The position numbers and the translations under genes were made by a program. The notes below the pieces were generated by a model, which saw only the letters and a program-made list of their open reading frames with translations, ran no database searches and had not been told where the DNA came from. DNA of 64,000 bases from Acinetobacter proteolyticus (GTDB taxonomy: Bacteria > Pseudomonadota > Gammaproteobacteria > Pseudomonadales > Moraxellaceae), in assembly GCF_000367945.1 (NCBI RefSeq), contig NZ_KB849179.1, forward strand, positions 1,206,935-1,270,934, given 5' to 3'. This document shows, piece after piece, positions 16,921-19,737 of this stretch. Each line of letters begins with the position of its first letter. The stretch's first letter is position 1.

Positions 16921-17700
16921 ATGGCTGCTTTTAACGTTGAACGCATTACTCATGTTCACCACTGGAATGACACGCTTTTCAGTTTTAAAACTACACGCGA
17001 CACCAGCTTACGTTTTAAAAATGGTCAGTTTGTGATGATCGGCCTTGAAGTGAATGGTAAGCCTTTAATGCGTGCTTATTCGATCGCGAGTGCGAATTAT
17101 GAAGAAGAACTCGAATTCTTCTCTATTAAAGTACAAGACGGTCCATTAACTTCTATCTTACAAAAAGTACAAGTGGGCGACGAGATCCTGATTTCTAAAA
17201 AGCCTACTGGCACTTTAGTACACGACGATTTATTACCAGGTAAAAATTTATACCTTTTATCTTCTGGTACTGGACTTGCTCCATTCCTTTCCCTGCTTCG
17301 TGATCCTGAAACTTACGAAAAATTTGAAAAAGTGATTATGGTTCACGGTACACGTTATGTATCAGAACTTGCTTATCAAGATTTGATCTTAAATGAACTC
17401 CCGAACCACGAGTTCTTTGAAGAACTCGGGATCAAAGACAAACTGATTTACTACCCGACTGTGACACGTGAACCATTCCACACTCAAGGCCGTGTGACCA
17501 CAGCAATTGAAACTGGCGAATTGTTTGAAAAAATTGGTTTACCACGTTTCAACCGTGAAACTGACCGTGCTATGCTTTGTGGTAGCCCTGCCTTTCTTAA
17601 AGATGTTGCAGCGTTACTTGATCAACATGGTCTGGTTGAATCACCGCGCATGGGCGTGATGGGTGACTATGTAATTGAACGTGCATTTGTTGAAAAATAA
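16921..17700 (+). CDS. fpr: Ferredoxin--NADP reductase
   Basis: FAD-dependent oxidoreductase shuttling electrons between NADPH and ferredoxin/flavodoxin, often for iron-sulfur repair and oxidative stress. It has 259 residues. The FAD-binding motif RAYSIAS and the NADP-binding GTGLAPF are present, and the C-terminus MGDYVIERAFVEK is the family type ending in an aromatic region contacting FAD. A rho-independent terminator follows. It is divergent from trmO. Confidence 0.93.
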   Translation: MAAFNVERITHVHHWNDTLFSFKTTRDTSLRFKNGQFVMIGLEVNGKPLMRAYSIASANYEEELEFFSIKVQDGPLTSILQKVQVGDEILISKKPTGTLVHDDLLPGKNLYLLSSGTGLAPFLSLLRDPETYEKFEKVIMVHGTRYVSELAYQDLILNELPNHEFFEELGIKDKLIYYPTVTREPFHTQGRVTTAIETGELFEKIGLPRFNRETDRAMLCGSPAFLKDVAALLDQHGLVESPRMGVMGDYVIERAFVEK

Positions 17701-17719
17701 TTTTCAATTCATGTAAGAA

Positions 17720-17750
17720 AAACCGAGGTTTAAACCTCGGTTTTTTATTT
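17720..17750 (+). terminator. Rho-independent terminator of fpr
   Basis: A 24-bp perfect palindrome (AAACCGAGGTTT and its complement, 17720-17743) is followed by a T-rich run. Confidence 0.85.
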
Positions 17751-17820: not shown

Positions 17821-18381
17821 TTAAGCTGCCTCTAAATGAATTAAGCGCTCGATATAATACCAACACTCTTCGATTTGAGCACGATCCTTATTTACTTTAG
17901 CATAAGCAGTCATACCATCAAGTATATTGATATACATTGCAGTAAGTACATGTGGCTGGAATACCTTAGCCTTTTCAAATAGGTTTTCAATCAACCCCAT
18001 GATCCACTCACGATATTCAACAATGGGACCGATAATGGAAGGATATTGTTGTAATATTTCCAACGAAGCTTTTTGAAACATACAACCATGAAAATCATCT
18101 GAGTTGAACCAAGACAAATGCCAAAAATATATTGCCTTGATTTTCCCCAAATAATCATCTTCTGCGATTAAGCTAATTTCATATTCAATTGCATCTTGAA
18201 TACTTTTATTTCTTCGAGACAAGCACTCTTCGATCAGGTTTTCTTTTGAAGGGAAATACTTATAGAAAGTCATTTTGGCAACCCCTGACTCACTAATAAT
18301 TCGATCCACCCCCACAGTACTATAGTTATGACGGTTGAAAAGATCTAAAGCCGTTGCAATAATATCCTCTTTTTTTGACAT
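17821..18381 (-). CDS. TetR-family transcriptional regulator
   Basis: TetR/AcrR-type repressor of 186 residues. The N-terminal helix-turn-helix covers residues 1-50, with TVGVDRIISESGVAKMTFYKYFPSKENL typical of the family. The C-terminal ligand domain is all-alpha and unassigned. It is divergent from a haem-oxygenase-like enzyme gene, with 447 bp between the start codons containing inverted repeats, so that enzyme is its likely target. The inducer is unknown. Confidence 0.85.
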   Translation of the reverse strand: MSKKEDIIATALDLFNRHNYSTVGVDRIISESGVAKMTFYKYFPSKENLIEECLSRRNKSIQDAIEYEISLIAEDDYLGKIKAIYFWHLSWFNSDDFHGCMFQKASLEILQQYPSIIGPIVEYREWIMGLIENLFEKAKVFQPHVLTAMYINILDGMTAYAKVNKDRAQIEECWYYIERLIHLEAA

Positions 18382-18429
18382 TTTATTATCCTTTTAGAAT
18401 TCTATCAAAAAACTTAATGCATTATTTAG

Positions 18430-18466
18430 ACATAGTTTACATGCTGGAAAATTCTGGCCACTATGT
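18430..18466. promoter_or_regulatory. Candidate TetR operator (inverted repeat)
   Basis: Arms ACATAGT (18430-18436) and ACTATGT (18460-18466) form a 7-bp perfect inverted repeat 48 bp upstream of the TetR gene start. The 23-bp gap is longer than in a usual TetR operator, so assignment is tentative. Confidence 0.35.
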
Positions 18467-18733
18467 ATGATTTATCTTATTGTAAGAGCATTATAGAAAA
18501 TTATATTTTCTTTATTGTTCCCTCTATAGAGTAAGTAAAAATCAGTCCTCATACAAGATCATTTGTAAAAAAATTTTACTATTTTAAAAAAATATTAAAT
18601 ATAGCGTGAAGCTATTCACCTTTTATTGACAGTTAAGTTAATTCATAAACTTTCTTACTATTTTTTAGCCTTTTTAATAAATTGATTTCACAAAAAAATC
18701 ATTTTATATTTAAACCATCCAATAAAAAGATAT

Positions 18734-18768
18734 TTGGTTGAACCAATAGTTATTCATAAGCAACCAAA
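18734..18768. promoter_or_regulatory. Candidate operator of the HDO enzyme gene
   Basis: TTGGTTGAACCAA (18734-18746) is a perfect odd palindrome, and TTTGGTTG (18733-18740) is again mirrored by CAACCAAA at 18761-18768. These repeats lie 60-95 bp upstream of the enzyme start, where a regulator could contact the promoter. Confidence 0.4.
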
Positions 18769-18828
18769 GATAATCTAACTAAATAATTGGAAAAGCAATA
18801 ATATTATTAATTCATCGAGTACAAGACT

Positions 18829-19683
18829 ATGCCAAAAACATTTGAAAACTTTAACGACCCAAGACAAAATGCTATTGAAGGAATGAAGAATAGTATTTCA
18901 ATTGATTTGTGGAATAAGAATTTGAATTTCCTGAATGAGCTCCGTGCAGAAATTTCAAATCATCCTGTTTCACGTCATCCAGCCATTCAACTTTTAAATG
19001 ACGGCGTTATTGATAAAGAAACTTTGAAACATATTCATTTAGAATATCGCCATGCCATTGTACAGGTATTTACGGATGCTTTATTGATGGCGCAATTTCA
19101 AAGCAAGCAACTAGAACCACGCTTATTATCAGGTTCTAAAATGTTTCCACGCTTTTTACTTAATCTTAATATTCTGGATGAGTTCGGTTTCCGCCCAGGT
19201 CTTGATCAAGAAGGTTACTATTCAGGTAACCCGGAATATGCACACTACCCTTTATTTGAAGATGTGCTAAATGACTTTGAGCTGAGTCAATCAGAACGTA
19301 ATGACTATCAACCCTCTTTAATTGCGCAACGTGTTCGTAACTACTTAGAAAACTCATTTGATAGTTACCAAGCAGTAGCTGCTTTATTGGCAGTCGCAGA
19401 AGAAGAAGTGATTCTATTTAGTCCTGCATTACGTCAGGCAACCAATGCTGTTGGTTTTGATGTCGATAGTGGTTATTACTATGTGCATGGTGTGTCACAT
19501 GATGCAACCGCTGAAGCAGCGGACGACGATCATGAAGATGATTTATGGTTTGTATTGGCACAAGCTTGTGTTGAATCTGAATATGCCTCGATCCGCCAAA
19601 TTTGTCTTGAATATTGCGATTTATGGGAACAGTTCTGGGATGAACAAATTGCCTATTATGGCGCATTCAAAAAACTGGCTTAA
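18829..19683 (+). CDS. Haem-oxygenase-like (iron-containing redox) enzyme
   Basis: All-alpha protein of 284 residues placed by sequence character in the haem-oxygenase-like diiron oxidase/iron-containing redox enzyme superfamily (relatives: UndA, CADD, SznF). Candidate metal ligands: Glu72 and His75 in LEYRH (an ExxH pair as in UndA), the Glu191-193 cluster, and a C-terminal helix with His220, His224, Glu229, Asp232-234 and His235. The exact ligand set is not certain. No biosynthetic gene is adjacent except a divergent TetR regulator, so the reaction and substrate are unknown. A rho-independent terminator follows, so it is a single-gene unit. Confidence 0.7.
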   Translation: MPKTFENFNDPRQNAIEGMKNSISIDLWNKNLNFLNELRAEISNHPVSRHPAIQLLNDGVIDKETLKHIHLEYRHAIVQVFTDALLMAQFQSKQLEPRLLSGSKMFPRFLLNLNILDEFGFRPGLDQEGYYSGNPEYAHYPLFEDVLNDFELSQSERNDYQPSLIAQRVRNYLENSFDSYQAVAALLAVAEEEVILFSPALRQATNAVGFDVDSGYYYVHGVSHDATAEAADDDHEDDLWFVLAQACVESEYASIRQICLEYCDLWEQFWDEQIAYYGAFKKLA

Positions 19684-19700
19684 TCTTTTTTGCTCAAGGA

Positions 19701-19737
19701 AGCCATCTTCAACTTTTAGTTGAAAGATGGCTTTTTT
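19701..19737 (+). terminator. Terminator of the HDO enzyme gene
   Basis: Hairpin AGCCATCTTCAACT / AGTTGAAAGATGGCT with a single bulged base and a TTT loop, followed by TTTTTT. Confidence 0.85.

Follow-up and report, generated by a model that had tools for sequence, protein, structure and literature searches.

The divergent pair and the predicted fold of its enzyme

The DNA analysed here, a stretch of 64,000 nucleotides from Acinetobacter proteolyticus (contig NZ_KB849179.1; below, the window), contains two divergent open reading frames (ORFs) separated by 447 bp. On the minus strand lies a gene encoding a TetR-family regulator of 186 amino acids (tetR, 17821-18381), and on the plus strand a gene encoding a protein of 284 amino acids (18829-19683), which an earlier note on this DNA had taken for a haem-oxygenase-like diiron enzyme (HDO). 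Both ORFs, their divergent arrangement and the length of the spacer were as that note had described. The regulator matched PF00440 (E 1.2e-13), and the features of the TetR family, an N-terminal helix-turn-helix and an all-helical core, are present in its profile and model.

The enzyme matched PF14518 (Haem_oxygenas_2) with E 1.4e-06 and 28.7 bits, just under the cut-off of 28.9; in the genome-wide search it scored 29.4 bits, above the cut-off, and 16 of 29 aligned relatives matched the same family (E 0.01). Its AlphaFold2 model (predicted local distance difference test score, pLDDT, 86.3; predicted template modelling score 0.86) retrieved BesC, CADD and UndA in a Foldseek search, at E values from 6.5e-06 to 2.5e-04. 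The VIA-align Z scores of the model were 22.2 for HrmI (220 residues), 22.0 for CADD (209 residues), 20.1 for BesC and 19.8 for UndA; TenA- and PqqC-like chains scored 18.8 or less. The comparison with UndA and CADD that the earlier note had suggested returned a predicted haem-oxygenase-like fold, and the assignment to this diiron-type fold is borne out by the model. Membership of the HDO superfamily is well supported at the level of the predicted fold; the metal site is plausible and the chemistry putative. The sole internal stretch of the model with pLDDT below 50, residues 225-233, fits the flexibility reported for core helix 3 of HDOs, which is unresolved or disordered in metal-free forms (PMC13108848). 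The same source puts the number of HDOs above 10,000, with about a dozen functionally validated, mostly in biosynthesis (PMC13108848).

Candidate metal ligands were sought by aligning 29 selected sequences, of which 14 belong to a distant Acinetobacter subfamily (30-41% identity); the 34 close sequences share too many invariant residues to single out ligands. Forty columns of the 29-sequence alignment are invariant, and the histidines and acids conserved in 29/29 are His70, Asp83, Asp117, Glu118, His139, Glu191, His220, Asp232, Asp233, His235 and Asp238. From these we propose as putative ligands Glu118 and His139 on core helix 1, Glu191 on core helix 2, and His220, Asp232 and His235 on core helix 3. 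This order of Glu, His and Asp is the one expected of a 3-His/3-carboxylate site, as in the HDO superfamily (HrmI, CADD, BesC, UndA, SznF, FlcD), with which the enzyme also has in common its fold and the poorly ordered stretch of core helix 3. The ligand set proposed in the earlier note stood in part: Glu191, His220, Asp232, Asp233 and His235 are invariant, Glu191 being the only such residue of the Glu191-193 cluster, and Glu118 and His139 had been missed. Glu72 and His75, also proposed there, are invariant only in close relatives; they are unlikely ligands because they are replaced in the distant subfamily, by Asn and by Thr/Asn/Val/Ala, respectively. Glu72 lies on helix 63-95 and, when compared in the sequence alignment with the extra Glu ligand of the SznF-type 3-His/4-carboxylate site, is Glu or Asn in the relatives; Asp83 is invariant.

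A further comparison was made with DtpC, another Acinetobacter HDO, whose substitutions E143A, H153A and H232A each abolished protection in A. baumannii, as reported in PMC13232832. In a short and weak HHalign match to 24 DtpC-like sequences, Glu118 fell on DtpC Glu143 and His139 on DtpC His153 (the residue numbering of the A. proteolyticus DtpC agrees with the published numbering), and by eye His220 sits within a YYxVH motif resembling the YFNLH of DtpC at His232. The gap between Glu118 and His139 is 20 residues, as against 9 in DtpC, and that between His220 and Asp232 is 11. In CADD, the helix-3 ligands are His174, Asp178 and His181, with 3 residues between the first His and the Asp; if the proposed set is right, the helix-3 His-Asp gap is longer here than in CADD. 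The proposed gaps set the enzyme apart from these HDOs, as do its dedicated TetR, the lack of a detectable sequence match to solved members of the superfamily and the absence of biosynthetic neighbours that we could see.

Conservation of the pair and its surroundings

Loci are referred to by the L-numbers of this analysis, and the locus group of the window is called group A. A scan of one genome per species returned 57 loci, of which 50 were of Acinetobacter type, 6 from Dyella and 1 from Tistrella; the enzyme has its nearest relatives in that genus. One of the 50 was binned as Bacillota (L031); this contig, which carries an Acinetobacter-type TetR-HDO locus, is probably misbinned. Within the genus, 55 of 119 genomes gave a match, 34 to the close form and 21 to the distant form only (31-43% identity), and 64 gave none; the order-level search found matches in 5 of 293 genomes, A. 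proteolyticus included. Genomes mostly hold one full copy, as does the 4.31-Mb A. proteolyticus assembly, and some hold two or three; the five matches in one genome include fragments.

A further 19 regions were added, 16 of which came from the 21 genomes with the distant form only, bringing the loci inspected to 76. Three that end at a contig edge (L037, L055 and L057) were excluded, leaving 66 Acinetobacter-type loci with intact upstream DNA; two collections were used, and some species were possibly counted twice. In 64 of these 66 loci a homologous TetR gene lies divergent to the enzyme gene, 75-453 bp away, and the partnership that the earlier note had seen in one window thus extends far beyond it. 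The distances among TetRs correlate with those among enzymes over 65 loci (r 0.658), and none of 2000 permutations reached this value (largest 0.287). The nearest neighbour lay outside the own locus group for 1 of 65 TetRs and for 0 of 65 enzymes, the latter count being partly built in, since the groups were made from the enzyme and its surroundings. The pair is a genuine conserved TetR-HDO unit, and the pairing is tight and long-lived.

The surroundings of the pair differ between loci, with an acyltransferase gene in L025, for example, and release factor 3 in L035. When the ORFs of at least 80 amino acids were all compared across 21 loci of 12 groups, few shared genes emerged beyond the TetR and the enzyme: a reductase and TrmO, common to group A and the distant group F, a 232-amino-acid ORF common to L024 and L045/L077, and weaker pairs. 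In the window, the FAD/NAD-binding reductase gene (16921-17700, plus strand; PF00970 and PF00175) adjoins the pair, and a terminator-like stem found by the scan (17717-17746, plus strand) separates it from the 3' end of tetR. Further neighbours are TrmO, a LysR regulator and QueH; no biosynthetic genes were observed adjoining the pair, in agreement with the earlier note. Behind the enzyme gene, inspection of the sequence revealed a terminator-like stem followed by a T run (19700-19737, plus strand), which has one bulged base and was not listed by the terminator scan. Since this stem and T run stand behind the gene, and the next gene encodes a DUF441 protein, the enzyme is probably transcribed alone, on a monocistronic mRNA.

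All 23 group-A loci have the reductase gene near the pair, as do 7 of 14 distant loci of groups E and F, against none of the 36 other untruncated loci; its presence near distant loci led us to discard it as a feature of group A only. In L065, L066, L067, L069, L071, L072 and L074 the reductase is 88-91% identical to that of the window, the TetR 48-53% and the enzyme 29-32%. With so similar a reductase beside both, close and distant pairs share one neighbourhood on the chromosome, where the pair either diverges fast or was swapped in place. The context in Dyella and Tistrella was also considered as a hint to the substrate and was set aside, as the neighbours differ (SIR2, FUSC, a short-chain dehydrogenase, an aldose epimerase, EF-P and a haloacid dehalogenase-like hydrolase); of the 10 ORFs searched there, in rough gene calls on GC-rich DNA, 4 had no family.

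The regulator and the spacer

The TetR model (pLDDT 89.2) matched SCO4454 (Z 22.4), 8z6d 'TetR1' (Z 21.8, 37% identity) and NemR (Z 19.7). Two cysteines, Cys53 and Cys100, are both present in 65 of 65 sequences, and TetR1, which we take to be a plasmid-borne secretion-system repressor, carries both as well. Cys100 aligns with Cys106 of NemR by HHalign (96.8%) and by MAFFT, and NemR Cys106 is reported to serve the response to reactive chlorine (PMC7464077). Besides this likeness in fold and cysteine, NemR differs in having Met at the position of Cys53 and in being paired with nemA/gloA and not with an HDO.

An A. baumannii record, NZ_CP077849.1, allowed close TetRs to be set beside weaker relatives. 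The record (L118, 3.66 Mb) is filed as plasmid pDETAB15 and behaves like an A. baumannii chromosome. It holds three full enzyme copies, each accompanied on the opposite strand by a close TetR at a distance of about 274-330 bp (3/3), and a fourth close TetR without an enzyme; these four score 270-291 bits and have both cysteines. Of 14 weaker TetRs (92-129 bits), 11 have Cys53 and just 1 has Cys100; four still weaker ones were not informative on the cysteines. Thus it is Cys100, and not Cys53, that marks the HDO-paired TetRs (65/65 as against 1/14). The 14 resemble in number the 11 TetR-type transcriptional regulators (TTTRs) of A. baumannii, whose over-expression is reported to drive opaque-to-translucent switching, and three of which, when over-expressed, lower the transcripts of katE, a hemerythrin and 'heme oxygenase-like proteins' (PMC9802203). 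The TTTRs have a related helix-turn-helix; we infer that the weaker TetRs, 13 of 14 of which lack Cys100, are these TTTRs. A thiol switch at the invariant Cys100 is, to judge from the alignments, an equal candidate beside sensing of a substrate or product.

In the spacer, a likely enzyme promoter (18682-18710, plus strand) consists of TTGATT at 18682 and TATATT at 18705, 17 nt apart. The region is nearly unchanged across the orthologue alignment; the consensus scan that picked it gave 10 sites, as against a mean of 10.9 in shuffled sequence. An imperfect 12-nt dyad (I4, 18677-18707, 92% complementary) covers this promoter and may be a TetR operator, a weak candidate that is AT-rich and has an incompletely conserved right arm.

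Two other inverted repeats, which the earlier note had taken for TetR operators, do exist (I3 and I6 among 10 pairs) and are conserved in the 24 closest spacers. On the enzyme side (18718-18791, plus strand) the predicted mRNA leader would form an outer helix, 18718-18723/18786-18791, and an inner hairpin, 18733-18740/18761-18768; its 14 pairs were paired in all 336 cells (100%) of 24 sequences. One pair of the inner hairpin changes from T-A to C-G in two sequences (as many both-side cells in 5 of 500 shuffles, as many such pairs in 119 of 500), and the outer helix never varies and is thus little informative. On the tetR side, the repeat ACATAGT/ACTATGT (18430-18466, minus strand), probably a leader hairpin too, had 96.1% of 154 cells paired in 24 group-A spacers, with both-side changes in 8 cells, a number reached by none of 500 shuffles, at 2 pairs, a number reached by 262 of the 500. 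These shuffle statistics ignore the relatedness of the spacers. The loops of both repeats differ by few bases among group-A spacers. Because of the compensatory changes and of loops varying by few bases, 5' leader hairpins are favoured over operators, and the repeats are probably hairpins in two mRNA leaders. The evidence is modest; a site bound by a protein could show symmetric changes as well. Matches to known RNA families in the spacer were only far below gathering scores, and none was accepted.

In mid-spacer lies a dyad, GTGAAGCTATTCAC (18606-18619), that we call CRP-like on what we take to be the CRP consensus; it conforms to GTG[AC]-N6-TCAC in 23 of 24 group-A spacers, with strict GTGA in 19 of 24, and was not seen in the L023 and L024 paralogues. 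Close to the start of the enzyme gene, L059, L060, L061, L064 and L070 have palindromes, such as TATACAGGTCTGTATA in L060, that are no more than leads.

Possible roles of the pair

The reading that we favour, with a probability of about 40%, is that of a TetR-repressed HDO unit, released by an oxidant, an electrophile or a small molecule, with a protective or detoxifying role. The TetR would bind the spacer, probably at the enzyme promoter, and repress the enzyme gene, and would let go once Cys100 is oxidised or alkylated or its pocket is filled by a small molecule. The released enzyme, with a predicted diiron (or Fe/Mn) site, would then use O2 at the dimetal centre and either remove a small molecule that is reactive or toxic or limit reactive oxygen. 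The outcome may be protection like that reported for DtpC (PMC13232832). We infer both this role and the thiol switch. No published description of the enzyme or of the TetR unit was found in the open-access literature.

The two Acinetobacter HDOs are alike in having no biosynthetic neighbours and, by the weak match above, in the position of two essential DtpC residues. The enzyme is not DtpC itself: A. proteolyticus has a further gene that is dtpC-like and precedes a catalase gene, and DtpC, of about 470 amino acids, is described as encoded in an operon with katE (PMC13232832).

Several points weigh against the favoured reading. By sequence, the enzyme had no credible PDB match and no profile match to any solved HDO. 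His70, Asp83, Asp117, Asp233 and Asp238 are as invariant as the proposed ligands, so that the six were chosen by motif order, and the DtpC match covers 29 columns at 14.6% probability. DtpC belongs to a different subfamily, and a shared role would be an analogy. L046 and L076 have no divergent TetR, and 0 of 7 Dyella and Tistrella enzyme loci carry a TetR of this kind. The correlation of distances shows joint inheritance, to which shared descent contributes, and not contact. When seven locus groups were searched for palindromic motifs, the best sites differed from group to group and no operator was common to all. Finally, cysteines can be structural, Cys53 being found also in most of the weaker A. 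baumannii relatives, and Lys175 of NemR aligns with Lys162, which varies in the TetR alignment.

Possible, and somewhat less probable, is a catabolic unit in which the TetR pocket binds the HDO substrate, a fatty- or amino-acid-like compound that the HDO oxidises or cleaves; the cysteines would be structural. A local TetR encoded divergently often responds to the substrate or product of the neighbouring gene's protein. The substrates of characterised HDOs are reported to be mainly of the fatty- and amino-acid kind, and the second step of MboA to need a redox partner (PMC13108848). The FAD/NAD reductase near all group-A and half of the group-E/F pairs could likewise supply electrons, and it is a possible donor for the enzyme; it is, however, missing from 36 of 36 other untruncated loci, and no gene among the neighbours examined points to a substrate. 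More doubtful is a redox-switched defence cassette, in which a TetR with the invariant Cys100 and Cys53 responds to oxidants or electrophiles, and the HDO thereby released catalytically removes peroxide, a reactive carbonyl or a quinone.

It is improbable that the enzyme is biosynthetic, turning a common precursor into a small signal or a modified metabolite by N-oxygenation, decarboxylation or desaturation. The closest folds, those of the N-oxygenase HrmI, the p-aminobenzoate synthase CADD, BesC and UndA, would suit such a role; yet no biosynthetic genes were seen adjoining the copies examined, more than half of the genus genomes (64/119) have no match, and some have two or three full copies.

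Phage-borne cargo, a moron or a defence gene, is very improbable: both proteins match PHROG families (phrog_16611, 443.7 bits; phrog_21633, 163.4 bits) and 27 IMG/VR loci were found, but the matches are explained by integrases inserted next door, the six 'phage' records are contigs of 49-379 kb under one phage name that look like host DNA, and a PADLOC search for defence systems gave no match. An integrase-like ORF follows the enzyme gene in 4 of 5 opened IMG/VR contigs (L150, L152, L164 and L172), with Pfam integrase domains confirmed in L150 and L152; for the similar ORF of L025 only the arm domain was confirmed. On the other side, L151 has no integrase-like ORF within the available stretch, and L027-L030 have no integrase-sized ORF just behind the enzyme, except for a 440-amino-acid ORF in L028. 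The site next to the pair is likely an insertion hot spot for prophages or islands. In L152 and L164 the integrase genes stand about 500 bp behind the enzyme, and a tRNA-Met gene lies just behind it at L025:7061-7137 and L123:2562-2638. The CAKLQF/CAKLQH records (H40-H45) are contigs of 'Acinetobacter phage MD-2021a', up to 379 kb long.

If the more doubtful reading of a redox-switched defence cassette is true, Acinetobacter would have a second, separately evolved HDO that serves stress survival instead of biosynthesis, with unusual helix-3 ligand spacing, as many as three full copies in a genome and structured mRNA leaders as a means of tuning. The family bears on the handling of oxidative stress in Acinetobacter, where DtpC already matters, and it reaches 55 of the 119 sampled genomes of the genus and an A. 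baumannii record with three copies. As the family comes with its own one-gene regulator, finding the compound that releases the TetR would reveal the substrate class.

Traces of related pairs were seen elsewhere. Plasmid pNP7-2 of Moraxella osloensis (L121) encodes a TetR 41% identical to that of the window and two enzyme pieces split by transposase genes, remnants of a TetR-enzyme pair. In A. proteolyticus itself, an orphan TetR (L107; L114:6171-6734), 53% identical to that of the window and with no HDO seen adjoining, resembles the TetRs of distant pairs and is perhaps the remnant of a second pair. The dtpC-like gene (471 amino acids) stands with a hemerythrin-domain gene and the catalase gene (L117:1052-11159), a cluster like the desiccation cluster described for A. 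baumannii. An 'iron-containing redox enzyme', G8E09_11585, numbered near a CinA-annotated gene in PMC7296048, is probably DtpC. A third PF14518 protein of the A. proteolyticus genome (L079; 263 amino acids, 66.5 bits) is encoded next to a phospholipase C-type gene.

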